This document shows positions 10,139 to 19,508 of a stretch of DNA of 32,511 bases, piece after piece. The translations under genes and the position numbers were made by a program. Source of the DNA: Sulfurovum sp. (GTDB lineage: Bacteria > Campylobacterota > Campylobacteria > Campylobacterales > Sulfurovaceae); NCBI GenBank assembly GCA_026996325.1, contig JALWLU010000203.1, positions 1-32,511 on the forward strand, given 5' to 3'. The notes under the pieces are model-generated. The model made no database searches. It was not told where the DNA came from and was given only the letters and a program-made list of their open reading frames with translations. Every line of letters begins with the position of its first letter. Position 1 is the first letter of the stretch.

Positions 10139-10960
10139 TTAGTTAGGATTGACTAAAAAGTAAGCCGCCACAGCAAATGCGATAGCCGCAACACTCCGTT
10201 TGATGACCACTCCGATGTTGTTGCCCACCTGGCAGGAGGAGCATTGCTTGTACTTTTTCGATTCGTAAAAGGCGTAGACAAAGAAGCCTGCCATCAGCAG
10301 CAAAACAGCCGGGAAGGCGATCTTGTCGAAGAGGTAGATATTCTCAACTGTGCTTTTCTCGAATTTGAAGAGCGGTGTGAGTAGGGAGAGGCCCATGAAA
10401 AAAAGGAGTTTGTCGGCAAAAGAGACGAAGTAGTCTTTGCGTGAGAAGGTAGGGCAGACATCGCCTGCATGCGGGACGAGCCCCTTGCCCTCCAGCGCTG
10501 CCAGAATCTGCTCTCTCTGTTTCTTGTCGATACGGTCGAGCATCGTGCCGCCAAGCGAGAAGTCCATCATCTGCTGAAACATTGCGGCAAAGTGTCTGTC
10601 GTTGTCGATATCCATATAGCAGGTGTTGCCGTGACGGTCCTCGTAGACGATTTTGAGTTTTTCGTGGCGGGGGACGACGGCAGTGATGTCGGGGTAGTAG
10701 CTGCTGCGCTCTTCGGCTTCGAAGGGCTTGCTCTTTTGCAGAATGCGTGGATTGGCGAACTCGATGTACTCGTCACCCTTTTTGACGATGAACATATTGA
10801 AAGGGTGTGCCACCTGCATCGCGCTGAGTGCATCGAGACCGTGGTGCTCCATCGTCTCTCTGATGTCATCGAAAAGTCTGCCCACACTCTCATCGAAACC
10901 GCGTACGTCGCCGCAGGCCAGAATACGCTCATCGGGATAGACTATCAGGTCTTTAATCAT
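10139..10960 (-). CDS. peptide-deformylase-like membrane protein lacking the metal ligands
   Basis: A 273-residue protein. Residues 1-160 follow the polypeptide deformylase fold order: Y-P-D-E-R-I-L near the start, an F-D-D-I-R-E-T-M helix, then G41-L-D-A-L-S-A-M-Q49 where deformylases have GxGLAAxQ. E83-E-R-S-S-Y-Y-P90 lies where they have EEGCLSxP, and Q129-Q-M-M-D-F134 where they have QHExDH. The cysteine, both histidines and the catalytic glutamate are all replaced (Ser86, Gln130, Phe134, Met131), so metal-dependent deformylation is not expected. The C-terminal part has three hydrophobic segments (about 177-198, 213-232, 252-270) and a C240-x-x-C243 pair. An AAGGA ribosome site precedes the ATG. 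Function is unknown. Confidence 0.85.
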   Translation of the reverse strand: MIKDLIVYPDERILACGDVRGFDESVGRLFDDIRETMEHHGLDALSAMQVAHPFNMFIVKKGDEYIEFANPRILQKSKPFEAEERSSYYPDITAVVPRHEKLKIVYEDRHGNTCYMDIDNDRHFAAMFQQMMDFSLGGTMLDRIDKKQREQILAALEGKGLVPHAGDVCPTFSRKDYFVSFADKLLFFMGLSLLTPLFKFEKSTVENIYLFDKIAFPAVLLLMAGFFVYAFYESKKYKQCSSCQVGNNIGVVIKRSVAAIAFAVAAYFLVNPN

Positions 10961-11059
10961 CGGGCATCCTTTTTCAATACTTTCTATAACATTCGATTAA
11001 GGGAAAATTGTAGGAAATATTGGAAATTGACAGGGTGCAGGCCAGAGCCTGCAAAGGGT

Positions 11060-11233
11060 TTAGTGGCTCTTTTGAACCACAATGATCATTTTGATGTTGA
11101 TGACGATAAATCGAATGAACTGCCAGATCAAACAGGTTCTCATAAATTTTACAAAAGGTGTCGGAACCATTGCTTCAAAGCTTGGCTCATACGCTTTAAT
11201 GTTCTTTTCAATCGAGTGGTCTACACTTCCCAT
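11060..11233 (-). CDS. 57-residue membrane-associated ORF downstream of sqr
   Basis: A short ORF with an excellent AAGGAG ribosome site 5 nt before its ATG, 50 nt after the sqr stop and on the same strand. The N-terminal half is polar (M-G-S-V-D-H-S-I-E-K). The second half is hydrophobic with arginines and a lysine inside (about residues 33-53, L-I-W-Q-F-I-R-F-I-V-I-N-I), suggesting a membrane-bound or amphipathic helix. It is too short for default gene finders. A role beside the quinone-reducing SQR, which also sits at the membrane surface, is a guess from position. Confidence 0.7.
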   Translation of the reverse strand: MGSVDHSIEKNIKAYEPSFEAMVPTPFVKFMRTCLIWQFIRFIVINIKMIIVVQKSH

Positions 11234-11283
11234 TGTTTCTCCTTACTTTATTTCTTTATTCAATCTCCGAACAACCCGAAGGA

Positions 11284-12753
11284 TTATTCGGGAATCAGTG
11301 TCCAGCCCGGCTTGAGCTTCGCTTTGTAGATGAAGAGGTGGTGCAGGATATGTTTGATCCAGTGCCCTGCAAGACCGATCTCACCGAATGTGTAGTCAAG
11401 GTCACGTCCGATACCAGGATACTTCTCGAAGTCCGGTACGACAGGGTAAACAGTCAGTGCTGCAGCTGTACCGTCAGTCAGACCCTTACCTGCTGATGCG
11501 ACACACGCGGCACCCATCTCCGCCATAGAGGCTTCGTGAAGGTGCGCTTCGTCACCTTTCTTGATCATGTCGACAATCGAGTGTGCTACCGCTTTACCGA
11601 TGATACCTGAAGGCATTCCCGTTCTTGGCGGTGTCGGTGTGATCGGTGTGCCGTTTGGTGAACTCATCGGCTTGGAGATAGGATGCGGCGGTGCAAAGGC
11701 GATACCACAGGCAAAGATATTCTTATAGTCTGGGTTCTGGTAGGTTCTTGGCCAGTCACTCGCTTTCCACTCCTCATACGGTTTTGCCGTATAGTCAGCA
11801 TCGACCTTGAGGAATCCGTTTGGTGCGAAGATCTTGTCTGTCATATCCTCACCGTTCTTGTCGTACGCTTTGAGACCGACACCGGCAAACGGAGGAATAA
11901 GCATCGCGAAATCGAACTCCTCTTCTCCTGTGGAGCCGTCAAGCAGTTCGTAGTGTACTTTTCCATCTTCGACCTTGTTGACATGCGCACCGATCAACCA
12001 GTCTACCCCACGCTCGACAAAGAGTGACTCTGCAAAGAGTTTGGAGCTTGCCGCGTACATACCACGTTTGATATGCAGACCACCGATTCCGAAGTCGCCA
12101 AGGAACGATTCGTTGGAGATCCACTTGATCTCGAGGTTGTCTCTGACACCCGCTTTGTTTGCTTCATGTTCGATGTTGAAGATGTATTCGAATGCCGCAC
12201 CCTGACAAGTACACATACCGTGACCGGTACCTACGAGTACTTTCTGCTTTGAGGTTTTCGCCTTTTCAAAGAGCTGCTGCAGTTCGAGGTTCGCGTGGAT
12301 CGCGTGGTCTGCGGTACAGACTGAAACGGTATAGTCACCAAGCTGTCCCTGTCCGTTGCCAAGACCAGGTGTCGCATCGAAGTTCAGTTTCGGACCGGTT
12401 GCATTGATAAGATAATCATATGTGAGCTCTTCGGTTTGACCCTCTTTGCCCTGACCGGTATATTCAATGGTAATATAGGGTGTGTCGCTGTCTGTTTTTC
12501 CTTCGGGGTGAATGGAGACTGCCTTTGCCTGACGGTAATCGATACCCGCTTTCTCATAGACCGGTGCGAGAGGGAATACGACATCCTCTTTCTGCATCTG
12601 TCCGACGCCTACCCAGATATTTGAGGGGATCCAGTTCCACTGTGAGTTTGGGGTGACCACCACTACTTCGTGCTCGTCGCCCAGCCACTTTTTTGCGAAT
12701 GTTGCGGCAGTGTGTCCGGAGACGCCACCGCCCATTACTACTAATCGTGCCAT
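11284..12753 (-). CDS. sqr: sulfide:quinone oxidoreductase, FAD-dependent
   Basis: A 489-residue flavoprotein that oxidises sulfide at the periplasmic membrane face and reduces quinone. The FAD-binding Rossmann motif is G8-G-G-V-S-G13, and an I-N-A-T-G-P segment marks the second nucleotide-contact strand. Candidate redox cysteines are C146, the C181-T-C183 pair and C349. The P-P-F-A-G-V and A-C-G-I-A-F-A-P-P segments are typical of SQR. A C-terminal amphipathic stretch (about residues 464-480) can bind the membrane. I chose the ATG at 12753, which has a GAAGGA ribosome site; an upstream in-frame start at 12777 lacks one. I do not assign an SQR subtype. Sulfide dehydrogenase of a related flavoprotein family is the alternative. 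Confidence 0.85.
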   Translation of the reverse strand: MARLVVMGGGVSGHTAATFAKKWLGDEHEVVVVTPNSQWNWIPSNIWVGVGQMQKEDVVFPLAPVYEKAGIDYRQAKAVSIHPEGKTDSDTPYITIEYTGQGKEGQTEELTYDYLINATGPKLNFDATPGLGNGQGQLGDYTVSVCTADHAIHANLELQQLFEKAKTSKQKVLVGTGHGMCTCQGAAFEYIFNIEHEANKAGVRDNLEIKWISNESFLGDFGIGGLHIKRGMYAASSKLFAESLFVERGVDWLIGAHVNKVEDGKVHYELLDGSTGEEEFDFAMLIPPFAGVGLKAYDKNGEDMTDKIFAPNGFLKVDADYTAKPYEEWKASDWPRTYQNPDYKNIFACGIAFAPPHPISKPMSSPNGTPITPTPPRTGMPSGIIGKAVAHSIVDMIKKGDEAHLHEASMAEMGAACVASAGKGLTDGTAAALTVYPVVPDFEKYPGIGRDLDYTFGEIGLAGHWIKHILHHLFIYKAKLKPGWTLIPE

Positions 12754-12790
12754 AGCCTTCCTTCTTGTTAAAGTCATTGTTGCAGAATCT

Positions 12791-13019: not shown

Positions 13020-15197
13020 GTGCAGCAGGCAAAGTGGTTTGTAACGATACTTCTCTTGACAATGACGCTGCAGGCTACTGTCTGGAACGCACCGTATCCC
13101 GAAGAGGAGATCCGTAGCAACACGCTTTTCTCGGTCTTCTCCTCTCCGCCAAAACATCTTGATCCCGTACGCTCCTACAATGCCAACGAGTGGACCTTTC
13201 TGTCCCAGATCTATGAGCCGCCGCTGCAGTACAACTACCTCAAAAAGCCCTATGTGCTCGAACCGTTGACGCTGACGCAGATGCCGCAGGTGATTTATCT
13301 GGATGAAAACGGAAGCGAAGTTGGCATTGAGAGCCCTGAGGTGAAGTTCACGCTTTACCGCTTCAGGTTTCGAGACGATCTCTTCTACCAGGAGCATCCG
13401 GCCTTTGTAAAGAGGCGTGACGCTACACTGCGTTATGGCAACTTGAATGACGACGAACTAAAAAAGATTCATACGCTACATGATTTTCCAAAACAGGAGA
13501 GCAGAAGGGTGACTGCAAGTGATTACGCCTATGCCATCAAGCGGATGGCGGTACGCCAGTACCACTCTCCCCTCCTCGATACGATGATGCAGTATATTGT
13601 CGGGTTGCGTGAATTTTCGAAGGAGGTCACCAAAGCTGCCAAAGAGCACTTTGCAAAAGGGGAGCGTCTGGATCTCCGGGAGTTCAATATCCCCGGTGTC
13701 AAAGTCGTCGATGAGACTACACTGGAGATACGCATTTACGGAAAGTATCCGCAGTTTCTCTACTGGATGGCGATGAACTTCTTTGCACCCATCCCCTGGG
13801 AGGCTGACCTCTTCTATCAGCAAAAGGGATTGAAGCAGAAGAACATTTCGCTCGATACCCAGCCGGTGGGTAGCGGACCCTACTATCTGGCAGAAAACAG
13901 TCCCAACCGGCGCATCAGGCTTCTGAAAAACCCCAACTTTCACCTGGAGCGCTATCCGACACTCTCTCTCCAGGAGGCCAACGCTTCCGGCATATCGAGA
14001 AGCCTGCTGCAAGACAGCGGCAAGCGCCTTCCGTTTATCGATGAAGCGGTATACTCCCTGGAGAAGGAGAGTATACCGCTGTGGAACAAGTTTTTGCAGG
14101 GCTACTACGATGCCTCGGGTATCAGCTCTGAAGCCTTCGACCAAGCGGTGCAGATAGGTTCGGGCGGCAGTATGGGGCTTAGCGATATGATGAAGCAGAA
14201 GGGCATTAGAATGGTCTCTTCCGTGGAGCCCTCCATCTTCTACATGGCCTTCAATATGGAAGATCCTGTCGTGGGCGGTTATACGGAAAAGCAGAAGAAA
14301 CTGCGTCAGGCCATCAGCATCGCACAGGACCAGGAGGAGTATATCTCCATTTTCTTCAATGAACGAGGTGTGCCTGCACAGGGTCCCATCCCTCCGGGTA
14401 TCTTCGGATATGAAGAGGGCAAGAAGGGAACCAATCCCGTTGTCTATGACTGGATCGATGGCAAGCGGGTGCGCAAAAGTCTCGAAGCGGCAAAAAAGCT
14501 GCTGGCAGATGCGGGGTATCCCGGCGGTATCTCGGAAAAGACAGGCAAGCGCCTCAAGCTCTACTACGATACCACCGCCACGGGGCCGGATGACCGTGCG
14601 CTGATGGACTGGCGGCGTAAGCAGTTTGCCAAACTGGGCATAGAGTTAGTGATCCGCGCCACGGACTACAACCGTTTTCAGGAGAAGGTGCGTAAAGGCA
14701 AGGTGCAGCTCTTTTCGTGGGGCTGGAATGCGGACTACCCCGACCCGGAGAACTTTCTCTTTCTGCTCTATGGCAAGAATGCCGTTGTCGACACTGACGG
14801 GGCGGGGATCAACAGTGCCAACTACAAAAACCTGGAGTTTGATGCCCTTTTTGCGAAGATGCAGACGATGCCAAACTCACCCCAACGCCTTGCAATTATT
14901 GAGAAGATGCTGCAGATTGCAAGAGAGGATGCGCCGTGGGTGTGGGGCTTCTACCCAAAGAGCCTCGCACTTGTGCATGGCTGGTTTAAAAATGTCGTCC
15001 CCAATGCGATGGCCAACAATACGCTCAAGTACAAGCGTATTGACCCGGTGCAGCGTTATGAAAAACAGCAGGCATGGAACCGTCCGGTGCTCTGGCCGCT
15101 GCTGATGCTGGCAGTGGCAGTGTTATTGCTGGTCTGGGGAGTGCGAAGCGCCTATAGAAGACGGCAGTCGCGTGTCATACGGAAAGGAGAAGCGTAA
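13020..15197 (+). CDS. peptide ABC transporter substrate-binding protein (SBP_bac_5 family), membrane-anchored
   Basis: A 725-residue family 5 solute-binding protein. A signal sequence (about residues 6-22) is followed by L-D-P-V-R-S-Y-N and I-Y-E-P-P-L, the usual start of the family domain, then V-T-A-S-D-Y-A-Y-A. Late segments include A-K-K-L-L-A-D-A-G-Y-P and W-G-W-N-A-D-Y-P-D-P. Unusually, the protein ends with a membrane helix (about residues 691-708) and a basic tail, so it is probably tethered at both ends or after cleavage at the C-terminus. The GTG start has an AAGGA ribosome site. The next gene begins on the base after its stop. Among peptide importers the operon is closest in layout to YejABEF. 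Confidence 0.88.
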   Translation: MQQAKWFVTILLLTMTLQATVWNAPYPEEEIRSNTLFSVFSSPPKHLDPVRSYNANEWTFLSQIYEPPLQYNYLKKPYVLEPLTLTQMPQVIYLDENGSEVGIESPEVKFTLYRFRFRDDLFYQEHPAFVKRRDATLRYGNLNDDELKKIHTLHDFPKQESRRVTASDYAYAIKRMAVRQYHSPLLDTMMQYIVGLREFSKEVTKAAKEHFAKGERLDLREFNIPGVKVVDETTLEIRIYGKYPQFLYWMAMNFFAPIPWEADLFYQQKGLKQKNISLDTQPVGSGPYYLAENSPNRRIRLLKNPNFHLERYPTLSLQEANASGISRSLLQDSGKRLPFIDEAVYSLEKESIPLWNKFLQGYYDASGISSEAFDQAVQIGSGGSMGLSDMMKQKGIRMVSSVEPSIFYMAFNMEDPVVGGYTEKQKKLRQAISIAQDQEEYISIFFNERGVPAQGPIPPGIFGYEEGKKGTNPVVYDWIDGKRVRKSLEAAKKLLADAGYPGGISEKTGKRLKLYYDTTATGPDDRALMDWRRKQFAKLGIELVIRATDYNRFQEKVRKGKVQLFSWGWNADYPDPENFLFLLYGKNAVVDTDGAGINSANYKNLEFDALFAKMQTMPNSPQRLAIIEKMLQIAREDAPWVWGFYPKSLALVHGWFKNVVPNAMANNTLKYKRIDPVQRYEKQQAWNRPVLWPLLMLAVAVLLLVWGVRSAYRRRQSRVIRKGEA

Positions 15198-16172
15198 ATG
15201 CTGGCCTATATCATCAAACGGATCTTTTATGCCATACCGATCCTTATCGGGGTCAACCTCATTACCTTTATGCTCTTTTTTATGGTCAATACACCCGATG
15301 ACATGGCGCGTGCACAGCTGGGTGCCAAGCAGACCACACCGGCGATGATCGCAGCATGGAAGGCAGAGAAGGGGTATGACAAACCGCTTTTCTACAACGC
15401 CGAGACTTCCGGTATTGAGAGTGTGACCGACACGCTCTTTGTGAATGAGTCTCTTAAACTTTTTCTATTCGATTTCGGACTCTCCGATGCCAACCGTAAC
15501 ATTGCCGAAGATATCAAAGCGCGTATGGGGCCCAGTCTTGCCATTGCGCTGCCTACCTTTCTGATAGCACTGGTGACCAACATATCGCTGGCGTTGCTGC
15601 TGGTGCTCTTCCGCGGTTCGGTGCTCGATATGTCGGCGATGGTAGTTGCGGTAATGATCATGTCGGTCTCAGGACTCTTCTATATCATCGCCGGACAGGT
15701 GCTCTTCTCGAAACTCTGGCACTGGGTGCCGATATCGGGCTACGAGAGCGACTGGGCAGGGATGAAGTTCGTACTGCTGCCTGTGGCCATCGGTGTCTTT
15801 GCGGGGCTTGGTTCGGGGGTGCGCTGGTACCGCTCCATCTTCCTTGAGCAGATCAACCAGGACTATGTGCGTACAGCGCGCGCCAAGGGGCTTTCGGAAA
15901 TTGCCGTACTCTTCCGTCATGTGCTGCCAAACGGGATGCTGCCCATTCTTACCGGTGTGGTAGTGATCATCCCCTCCCTTTTTATGGGATCACTGATTAT
16001 GGAGTCCTTCTTTGGCATTCCCGGACTTGGCTCCTACACCATCGATGCGATCAACGCACAGGATTTCGCCATTGTCAAGGCAATGGTCTTTCTGGGGTCG
16101 GTGCTCTACATTGTGGGACTGATACTGACCGATATCTCCTACACACTCTTCGATCCGAGGGTGACGCTGTGA
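15198..16172 (+). CDS. peptide ABC transporter permease, DppB/YejB type
   Basis: A 324-residue inner-membrane permease with the classical N-terminus (Y-I-I-K-R-I-F-Y-A-I-P-I-L-I-G), an extended periplasmic loop and five more hydrophobic segments. The ATPase-contact EAA loop reads Y-V-R-T-A-R-A-K-G-L-S, followed by V-L-P-N-G-M-L-P. An AAGGAG ribosome site lies at the end of the binding-protein gene. The stop overlaps the GTG of the second permease. Length and motifs are normal for the family. Confidence 0.93.
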   Translation: MLAYIIKRIFYAIPILIGVNLITFMLFFMVNTPDDMARAQLGAKQTTPAMIAAWKAEKGYDKPLFYNAETSGIESVTDTLFVNESLKLFLFDFGLSDANRNIAEDIKARMGPSLAIALPTFLIALVTNISLALLLVLFRGSVLDMSAMVVAVMIMSVSGLFYIIAGQVLFSKLWHWVPISGYESDWAGMKFVLLPVAIGVFAGLGSGVRWYRSIFLEQINQDYVRTARAKGLSEIAVLFRHVLPNGMLPILTGVVVIIPSLFMGSLIMESFFGIPGLGSYTIDAINAQDFAIVKAMVFLGSVLYIVGLILTDISYTLFDPRVTL

Positions 16173-17509
16173 GTCTCTTCTTTTTATGGACGGATATACT
16201 GGTATGGGCGCTGGTCGCGGTAGCGGTTGCGGGTGGAGGGATGCTGCTGCGTTCGCCTGTATCACGGCAGAAGTGGGTAACCATTTTCCGATCGAAGATC
16301 GCAATGGCCTCATCGATCGTGCTGATCTTCTATCTGGCATTTGCGCTGCTTGATTCGGTCCACTTTAAGGTCGAAAAACCGGATGGGGGAGCACCCATCG
16401 TTTCCCTGCTTGATATGGCGATGGCGCACCAGAAGGATTTTTCGGAACGTACCTACTCCGCACCCTTTGCGACACATGAATACACCAAAAGCATCATCGT
16501 CGATGCCAAAGGAGAGAGCATACAGCGTTACCTGCCGCTGAAGTATGTCAGCAGCGGGCAGATGCTTTCGGGTTCTCTCACGGGGCTTTTGGCGGGTGCG
16601 CTTATTGCCTTTTTGTTTATCGGGATGCATCTGCTCTGGCGTGCCAAAGGTAATGTCGGCGTACATTTCAATGCGGTGGTGCGTGGCCGGACGCAGCTGC
16701 CGTGGCGGACGGCATACGGGGTGTTTGCGTTGATGACGCTTCTGATTGTGTGGCTCTATGTAATGAGCTTCTCCTACCATGTGCTTGGTACCGATAAGGT
16801 GGGCGGCGATGTCTTCTATGCTGCGCTAAAGAGTATTAGAACCGGGGTGCTCATTGGTACGCTTACAACGCTGGTGACCCTGCCGCTCGCGATCTTTCTG
16901 GGGGTGAGTGCAGGATATTTCAGAGGATGGGTGGATGACCTCATTCAGTACCTCTACACTACGTTAAGCTCCATCCCCGGTGTCCTGCTGATAGCGGCCG
17001 GAGTGCTGATGATGCAGGTGATGATGGACAACCATCCTGAGTGGTTCGCATCGACGATAGAGCGCTCCGACCTGCGGCTGCTCTTTCTTATTGTAATTTT
17101 GGGGGTGACCAGCTGGACGGGACTCTGCCGGATGCTAAGAGCTGAAACGCTGCGCATTGCGAAGATGGATTTTGTCACTGCGGCAAAGGCGTTTGGGGTA
17201 AGCAAGTGGCGCATTATGGCACGCCATATCGTTCCCAACCTTACCCACATCATTCTCATCTCCATCGTGCTTGACTTCTCCGGTCTTGTGCTGGCAGAAG
17301 CGGTACTCTCCTATGTGGGGGTGGGGGTGGACCCCACAATGTACAGCTGGGGGAACATGATCAACCAGGCGCGCCTTGAGATGGCGCGTGAGCCGATGGT
17401 GTGGTGGTCGCTCTTTGCCTCGTTCATCTTCATGTTCATTCTGGTGCTGGCTGCCAACCTCTTCTCAGACAGGGTGCAGCAGGTACTCGACCCGCGCAAT
17501 GCCACATAG
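16169..17509 (+). CDS. peptide ABC transporter permease, DppC/YejE type, with extended N-terminus
   Basis: A 446-residue permease that pairs with the upstream DppB-like protein. The C-terminal 270 residues are a regular permease: H-V-L-G-T-D-K-V-G-G-D-V entry motif, then an EAA loop A-A-K-A-F-G-V-S-K-W-R with I-V-P-N. The first about 170 residues carry extra hydrophobic helices (near 8-28, 44-66 and 128-150) and a soluble loop, making it about 150 residues longer than DppC. YejE-type permeases are also extended. GTG is used as the start, overlapping the previous stop as GTGA. Confidence 0.9.
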   Translation: MSLFFLWTDILVWALVAVAVAGGGMLLRSPVSRQKWVTIFRSKIAMASSIVLIFYLAFALLDSVHFKVEKPDGGAPIVSLLDMAMAHQKDFSERTYSAPFATHEYTKSIIVDAKGESIQRYLPLKYVSSGQMLSGSLTGLLAGALIAFLFIGMHLLWRAKGNVGVHFNAVVRGRTQLPWRTAYGVFALMTLLIVWLYVMSFSYHVLGTDKVGGDVFYAALKSIRTGVLIGTLTTLVTLPLAIFLGVSAGYFRGWVDDLIQYLYTTLSSIPGVLLIAAGVLMMQVMMDNHPEWFASTIERSDLRLLFLIVILGVTSWTGLCRMLRAETLRIAKMDFVTAAKAFGVSKWRIMARHIVPNLTHIILISIVLDFSGLVLAEAVLSYVGVGVDPTMYSWGNMINQARLEMAREPMVWWSLFASFIFMFILVLAANLFSDRVQQVLDPRNAT

Positions 17510-17511
17510 GT

Positions 17512-17751
17512 TCAGGGACCAAGCAGACGAAGTAGAAGCATGCTCAGTGCACGGATTTTGGAACTGCTCTGGGCGTTTGAAACCGACTCCGCAGTTGAGG
17601 CCGATGATTTTGGGGGTGTGCACGTGGAAGAGGGAAGGGATTCCAACGCAGTTTTGGGTTCACCGTTTTGCTGTGCGGCTGCAGCAGAGGTACCAAGGTA
17701 TGCAGTCAGGATAAGCGGGAGGATCAGCGTGGTTTTGAACGGTGTGTACAT
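17512..17751 (-). CDS. small secreted protein ORF, antisense within the transporter operon
   Basis: A 79-codon ORF on the opposite strand to its neighbours. It begins with a convincing signal peptide (about residues 6-26, ending in A-A-A-A), and an AAAGGA ribosome site precedes its ATG. The rest is serine- and threonine-rich and ends in an unlikely leucine-rich tail. In another frame, the last third reads I-I-G-L-N-C-G-V-G-F-K, so a frameshift near codon 47 is possible. It ends 2 nt from the permease stop. I consider the start real but the C-terminus doubtful. Function is unknown. Confidence 0.45.
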   Translation of the reverse strand: MYTPFKTTLILPLILTAYLGTSAAAAQQNGEPKTALESLPSSTCTPPKSSASTAESVSNAQSSSKIRALSMLLLRLLGP

Positions 17752-17879
17752 CTGTTATCCTTTCGTCATTTTCTTTTTTGAAGTTTAGTGTGAAATCGTG
17801 GCGTGAATGTAGAGGAATCGTGAAGGAATTGTAGAGTGAAAAGCATTTTTTATCTGAACGCTATTGGGGAGATACTATA

Positions 17880-19508
17880 ATGGGGCGTATGGAACAGACG
17901 CATCTATTGAGTATTGAAAATCTTAGTGTCAGTGTCGGGGAAGAGAGACTGCTTGAGAATGTCAGCATTACCATCGACAGGGGAGAGACTTTCGCGTTGG
18001 TAGGGGAGTCGGGCAGCGGAAAGTCGCTGACCTCTCTGGCCATTATGCGTCTGTTGCCCGAAGCACTCAGCGTTGAGAGCGGTGATGTGAAGCTGGAGGG
18101 CGAATCGCTCTTTGCGATCCCGGAGCATGAGATGCAGCATATCCGCGGCAGTCGGATTGCGATGATTTTTCAGGAGCCGATGAGTGCGCTCAACCCGGTC
18201 ATGACAGTTGGGGCACAGGTCGAAGAGGTGGTGCGGCTGCACCTGAAGCTCTCAAGGGCTGAAGCCAAAGCGCGTGTCCTCTCCCTTTTTGAAGAGGTGG
18301 CGATTCCTGATCCCCATGTCAGGTATGGCTGGTACCCCCACCAGCTCTCCGGCGGTCAGAAGCAGCGGGTGATGATCGCGATGGCACTGGCATGCGAGCC
18401 GGAGCTGCTGATCGCCGATGAACCGACCACCGCGCTGGATGTCACCATTCAGGCACAGGTACTGGAGATGCTTGAAAAGATCAAAAAAGAGCGCGGTTTC
18501 TCCATTCTCTTCATCACGCACGATCTGGCAGTTGTTTCGCAAGTAGCCGACAGGGTGGCCGTGATGCAAAAGGGCCGCATTGTCGAAACGGCTGAAGCGG
18601 AACGCTTTTTCAAAGGGCCAAAGCACCCTTACACGCAGCAGCTTCTAAAAGATGCGCTCGGCAGCCAGGAGCGTACGCTAACGCCGTCCACACACCCTTT
18701 GCTGGAAGTACGGAACCTGAAGGTGCACTTTCCCGTTAAAAAAAGGATACTGCAGCGAAACAGTAGCAGCATCAAGGCAGTCGACGGCGTTTCACTCTCT
18801 ATTGAAAAGGGAAAGACACTGGCGCTGGTTGGAGAGTCCGGCAGCGGTAAAAGTACTCTTGGGCAGGCGATCCTCTCACTGGTGCCGGTTACGGAGGGTG
18901 AGATCCTCTTTGACGGTGTCAACCTTGCCTCGCTTTCCAAAGTGCAGCTGCAGCCCTACCGCCAAAAGATCCAGGTAATCTTTCAGGACCCCTTTGGGGC
19001 ACTTGATCCGCGTATGCGGGTAGGGGAGATTATCGCCGAAGGGATGGAGAGCCTTGGGGTGGGTCCGACAACAAAGCAGGCACGTCGTGAAGCGATTATG
19101 AAACTTTTGCAAAAGGTAGAGCTTGACGCAGGGGCGATCGACCGCTATCCGCACGAATTCTCCGGAGGTCAGCGACAGCGAATCGGCATAGCCCGCGCAC
19201 TGGCGGTCAAGCCGGAGCTGATTGTCTGTGACGAGCCCACCTCCGCCCTTGATGTAACGGTACGCGCACAGGTGCTGGCGCTGCTCAAAAGGCTGCAGGA
19301 AGAGACAGGGGTAGCCTACCTCTTCATTACCCACGATCTCTCCATCGTTCCGGCCATCGCCGATGAGGTTGCGGTGATGCAGCGGGGAAAAATTGTGGAG
19401 CAGGGAAGTGTTGCGGAAGTGATGAAGTATCCGCAGGAGAGCTACACTAAAATGCTGCTTGCCGCAGCGCCCAAACTACCCAAAACCATACAAAAGGCAT
19501 TTGCATGA
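17880..19508 (+). CDS. peptide ABC transporter ATPase, duplicated (YejF/DppDF fusion type)
   Basis: A 542-residue ATPase with two complete ABC domains. Domain 1 has Walker A G42-E-S-G-S-G-K-S49, signature L-S-G-G-Q-K-Q-R and Walker B L-L-I-A-D-E-P-T. Domain 2 has Walker A at 318-325, signature F-S-G-G-Q-R-Q-R and Walker B L-I-V-C-D-E-P-T. Both keep the I-T-H-D switch histidine, and the first ends in the oligopeptide-family motif H-P-Y-T-Q-Q-L-L. It powers the permeases encoded upstream. GGAG lies 8 nt before the ATG at 17880. A TATAAT overlaps that ATG, so a leaderless start at Met4 (17889) is a second possibility. A 370-bp gap separates it from the permeases. Confidence 0.93.
   Translation: MGRMEQTHLLSIENLSVSVGEERLLENVSITIDRGETFALVGESGSGKSLTSLAIMRLLPEALSVESGDVKLEGESLFAIPEHEMQHIRGSRIAMIFQEPMSALNPVMTVGAQVEEVVRLHLKLSRAEAKARVLSLFEEVAIPDPHVRYGWYPHQLSGGQKQRVMIAMALACEPELLIADEPTTALDVTIQAQVLEMLEKIKKERGFSILFITHDLAVVSQVADRVAVMQKGRIVETAEAERFFKGPKHPYTQQLLKDALGSQERTLTPSTHPLLEVRNLKVHFPVKKRILQRNSSSIKAVDGVSLSIEKGKTLALVGESGSGKSTLGQAILSLVPVTEGEILFDGVNLASLSKVQLQPYRQKIQVIFQDPFGALDPRMRVGEIIAEGMESLGVGPTTKQARREAIMKLLQKVELDAGAIDRYPHEFSGGQRQRIGIARALAVKPELIVCDEPTSALDVTVRAQVLALLKRLQEETGVAYLFITHDLSIVPAIADEVAVMQRGKIVEQGSVAEVMKYPQESYTKMLLAAAPKLPKTIQKAFA

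Follow-up and report, generated by a model that had tools for sequence, protein, structure and literature searches.

We report here that a peptide deformylase fold tied to a membrane tail, encoded in Sulfurovum sp. next to a sulfide:quinone oxidoreductase gene (sqr), belongs to a family of pseudoenzymes. We show that the metal ligands are lost in every examined copy of this family while the fold is retained, that its members are under purifying selection, and that they keep both gene order and co-occurrence with sulfide:quinone oxidoreductase (SQR). The gene lies in a stretch of 32,511 nucleotides, analyzed as a whole and referred to as the window (Table 1). We consider it probable that sqr, a 57-aa helix protein gene, and the pseudo-deformylase gene, in that order, form an SQR module of which the pseudo-deformylase is the third and optional part. 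Under this model, a duplicated Campylobacterota def gene would have lost its metal center once, the metal-less copy would have acquired by fusion a membrane tail of three helices with cysteines, and selection would have retained the product as an optional third component of the module.

Table 1. Genes and domains discussed in the text, in window coordinates
Feature	Positions	Strand	Remarks
Pseudo-deformylase with membrane tail	10139..10960	-	Whole gene, 273 aa
Deformylase fold without metal ligands, residues 1-160	10481..10960	-	Pfam, structure model, and 66 copies
Tail, residues 169-273: three membrane helices, C169, C240-x-x-C243-Q-V-G-N	10142..10456	-	
Overlooked 57-aa gene P0003	11060..11233	-	One amphipathic/membrane helix; AAGGAG ribosome-binding site
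P0002, sulfide:quinone oxidoreductase by sequence (FAD)	11284..12777	-	Probable start 12753, MARLVVMGGG

The original prediction had read a deformylase-like fold and its ruined active site from the letters of the window, and this description was upheld. In a Pfam profile search, Pep_deformylase (PF01327) covers residues 4-149 (E value, 1.1e-21; 77 bits against a cut-off of 22.8), and a structure model built by AlphaFold with 62 relatives (mean pLDDT, 89) finds deformylases as its PDB matches, the top one being the Helicobacter pylori enzyme (2ew5; Z, 25.4; rmsd, 1.4 Å over 157 residues). The protein falls far below the cut-off of every NCBIfam deformylase model, scoring 44.9 bits with TIGR00079 against an equivalog cut-off of 103.95. 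Its GxGLAAxQ box is indeed degenerate (ALSAMQ for GLAAxQ), the Cys of EGCLS is Ser86, and QHExDH has become QQMMDF; S86, Q130, M131, and F134 thus stand in place of Cys, His, Glu, and His, and the Y-x-D-R-x-G strand survives as Y-E-D-R-H-G. The three hydrophobic segments and the C-x-x-C pair noted beyond the fold likewise correspond to three helices of membrane type and C240-x-x-C243. Taken alone, this tail gave no PDB fold match at an E value of <0.001 (Foldseek). A third cysteine, C169, precedes the first membrane helix. The protein has no signal peptide, and a K/R-rich loop joins helices 2 and 3; by the positive-inside rule, the deformylase domain and all three near-invariant cysteines would lie on the cytosolic side. 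Several antisense open reading frames cross the gene (10469-11329 on the forward strand and others) and were taken as chance shadows of the opposite-strand genes.

Motifs were counted in 66 distinct complete or near-complete Campylobacterota copies from many genera. The metal-binding Cys, both His residues, and the catalytic Glu are absent from all 66, and the ligand loss is therefore common to the orthologues. The position of the Cys ligand is taken by Thr (40 copies), Ser (21 copies), or Asp (5 copies), and HExxH is kept in none of the 66, the commonest form being QRKxDY and that of the window's own branch QQMMDF. Other positions have hardly moved: P9, N70, E84, R98, and D133 are invariant, Q49 and Q129 are nearly so, and R20, which differs from orthodox deformylases, is invariant among the pseudo copies. 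In the tail, CxxC is found in all 65 copies long enough to reach it and C169 in 63 of 66. From these replacements, the protein is expected not to deformylate. It is quite unlikely, in our opinion, that the old pocket has instead gained a new, metal-independent enzymatic activity, based for example on Lys, Arg, Tyr, or Thr; the replaced motif is itself conserved in most copies (T/S86, R130-K131, D133, and Y134), but the window's branch carries Q130, M131, and F134, so that the family as a whole shares no polar catalytic set.

That the gene is a redundant def in decay was ruled out by this conservation together with the dN/dS ratios, which against close relatives are 0.02 to 0.07 for the deformylase part and alike for the tail (0.09 in one pair); the pseudo-deformylase is kept by purifying selection. 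The idea that it is the only deformylase of its genome was also dismissed, as contig C31 of the same genome carries an orthodox def (EGCLS, QHEIDH), the catalytic gene that the original prediction had thought worth seeking. When placed in a tree alongside 27 orthodox deformylases, the pseudo-deformylases group as one clade (SH-aLRT, 100) within the Campylobacterota def sequences and therefore have a single origin, from a native def. In two genomes, G055 and G029, there is a further def of orthodox appearance (EGCLS, HExDH; L179 and L181), which sits on a long branch apart from the first.

The family has been hidden by its label. Our survey took in Campylobacterota genomes and plasmid records, among them a Sulfurovum mangrovi plasmid copy (L159:6892-7707) that is interrupted by a frame break, with both halves annotated as peptide deformylase; on such proteins, that label is likely a database error. 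A search of a library of papers found none pairing deformylase with Sulfurimonas or with a pseudoenzyme, and the sole match for deformylase with SQR concerns Fe-S clusters.

What the protein associates with is indicated by its neighborhood. In an unsupervised clustering of neighbors, the flavoprotein encoded directly upstream (P0002) was the one constant neighbor where all other flanking genes differ. By alignment, this flavoprotein is an SQR: it matches the Aquifex enzyme 3hyv over residues 11-431 (phmmer E value, 2.5e-43), and its redox-type cysteines C154, C191, and C425, kept in 74 to 75 of 75 sequences, align with those of solved SQRs. Among 397 genomes sampled evenly across the class, the pseudo-deformylase occurs in 79 (87 genes) and SQR in 111, and all 79 pseudo-deformylase genomes have SQR (Fisher P value of about 1e-57 before allowing for kinship, a value that overstates independence because the genomes are related). 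In 71 of the 79, the pseudo-deformylase gene lies directly downstream of sqr on the same strand. It is absent from 32 of the 111 SQR genomes, and SQR therefore does not need it; in these SQR-only genomes, sqr and the small gene are kept and are followed by unrelated genes. In the window, an oligopeptide/nickel-type ABC transporter operon with a two-domain ATPase of 542 aa (13020-19508, forward strand) diverges from the three genes.

It could be argued that SQR and the pseudo-deformylase merely share a history and are functionally unrelated, given that their distribution is phylogenetically clustered and that the pseudo-deformylase lies away from SQR in eight genomes. However, the order persists across six families with otherwise different surroundings, with no counter-example, and the pseudo-deformylase was never found without SQR, which makes this reading extremely unlikely. 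Second copies are found elsewhere in eight genomes, by rpoN or by a CMD (AhpD-like) gene with a MerR regulator. Copies away from SQR (L099, L102, L103, L105, L106, and L110) repeatedly adjoin a CMD gene, often together with a MerR regulator.

The same neighborhood bears on the role proposed in the original prediction, namely, the binding of nascent formyl-methionine chains at the membrane. The membrane-tied, conserved deformylase-fold pseudoenzyme that it described is real, but the proposed function found no support. A membrane-tethered decoy or chaperone that still binds formyl-Met or the N-terminal peptides of nascent membrane proteins would fit with the retention of the fold, the Gln of GLAAxQ, and the Glu of EGCLS. 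Against this, the substrate-binding strand (GIG), the metal, and the formyl-binding loop have been replaced by other conserved residues, and none of the translation genes shows a consistent linkage to the pseudo-deformylase; rplM-rpsI are its neighbors in many Sulfurovaceae, but this does not extend to other families. We regard such a role as very unlikely. The conserved partners are SQR and the small protein and therefore point to sulfide oxidation rather than to nascent-chain binding.

The small gene appears to encode an obligate partner of SQR, and the pseudo-deformylase gene an optional one. The gap between sqr and the pseudo-deformylase gene is 323 bp in the window (median, 315 bp), and an open reading frame of 53 to 67 aa was present in all 50 such gaps examined (one not caught by the motif pattern), with the motif RTCxIWQFxRFxxINIKMxxVVxKSH in P0003. 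An independent search of the 397 class genomes found the small gene in 111, the very genomes that have SQR, where it immediately follows all 114 SQR genes at a distance of 6 to 261 bp. Its dN/dS is 0.03 to 0.06; P24, R32, C34, Q38, R41, F42, N46, K48, M49, and K55-S-H are invariant or nearly so, and conservation is periodic on the helix (moment P value, 0.008), as would be expected for a helix packing one face on a partner; C34, Q38, R41, I45, K48, and K55 make up the conserved stripe. No member of the family has a Pfam or NCBIfam match above cut-off, and in a literature search for SQR and small proteins, the partner was not described. An RNA element in the 323-bp gap was set aside, as the conserved coding frame accounts for the gap, and antisense frames of 70 to 100 aa there (cluster c15) were again taken as chance shadows of opposite-strand genes. 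No promoter or terminator stood above chance; because about 40 to 110 bp separate the small gene from the pseudo-deformylase gene, their cotranscription is not proven. The sole extra copy of the small gene (G345, L109 7100-7280, reverse strand) is followed within a few bases by a second pseudo-deformylase gene, without an adjacent SQR gene, and thus forms an independent link between these two. Plasmids of Thiodictyon (Gammaproteobacteria) and of Marivivens (Alphaproteobacteria) also have the small gene, labeled hypothetical, behind related SQRs (ca. 61% identity).

The tail may be a functional core of its own. After sqr and the small gene, genome G264 has a 98-aa frame (L151:4551-4847; CTGCIVAN; KKRMTCTGCIVAN) that is a putative tail without a deformylase domain, matching the cysteine membrane tail with an hhalign probability of 67% (E value, 5e-5); this is suggestive of such a core. 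In G421, a genus mate of G264, the contig ends shortly after the small gene. A weak match to the tail profile (1.4e-5) at G390:C9:141887-142099, within a 455-aa frame, is a possible fusion of the tail to another protein, and a marginal match of 24 residues to the CxxCQxGN stretch occurs in 358-aa frames of five genomes of one genus (G073, G094, G097, G114, and G118).

How the three proteins might work together can be sketched from these patterns. The small protein would be a constitutive partner of SQR, aiding its docking at the membrane near the quinone, by analogy with the TorE/NapE proteins that accompany other respiratory enzymes. The pseudo-deformylase may join the SQR complex from the cytosolic side and offer its altered pocket as a protein- or ligand-binding surface. 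The invariant C-x-x-C hints at a thiol/sulfur or metal function, and C169, C240, and C243 could serve as a metal site or as a thiol acceptor or sensor for sulfane sulfur made by SQR. In its most specific form, an SQR with subunits, comprising the obligate 57-aa partner and a pseudo-deformylase that takes up sulfane sulfur or metal on its three cytosolic-side cysteines and passes it on or senses it at the inner membrane, the proposal is tentative and rather unlikely to be right in all its parts. We would give a similarly small chance to a thiol or metal sensor of sulfide or polysulfide on the cytosolic face that regulates SQR or respiration without being a subunit of the complex. The invariant CxxC in a short interhelix loop, C169, and the CMD and MerR genes beside the second copies all speak for a sensor; however, no output domain is attached, and a physical partner better accounts for the strict gene order with the small partner of SQR and for the pairing of small gene and pseudo-deformylase in G345.

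Each component of the proposed module resembles a known system in part. With bacterial Def (PF01327; H. pylori 2ew5 and Escherichia coli 1bs4), the pseudo-deformylase shares fold, motif order, scaffold residues, and descent from the Campylobacterota def, but it differs in the loss of metal ligands and catalytic Glu, in its three-helix CxxC tail, and in its linkage to sqr. The tail recalls the FeoB-associated Cys-rich membrane protein (PF12669), in which a helix is also followed by a CxxC pair, and weak matches were obtained for 14 of 23 tails; however, the tail scores 18.6 bits against a curated cut-off of 27, and the 44-position model contrasts with three helices. TorE/NapE proteins, which strengthen the anchoring of respiratory components, are likewise small one-helix proteins encoded with a respiratory enzyme (PMC6134056), whereas the small partner of SQR has no Pfam match and differs in motif and in partner. 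Compared with solved SQRs (Aquifex aeolicus 3hyv and Acidithiobacillus ferrooxidans 3sz0), the partner SQR retains both the FAD fold and the three redox-type cysteines but has ca. 490 aa with extra segments and is always followed by the small helix protein.

SQRs are usually regarded as monotopic enzymes that act alone, and to our knowledge, little is understood of how their sulfur product leaves. Given a strictly conserved small partner and a membrane pseudoenzyme, a possible SQR complex can be tested for directly in vent bacteria that grow in culture. The pseudo-deformylase itself would be a case of a housekeeping enzyme repurposed through the loss of its chemistry.
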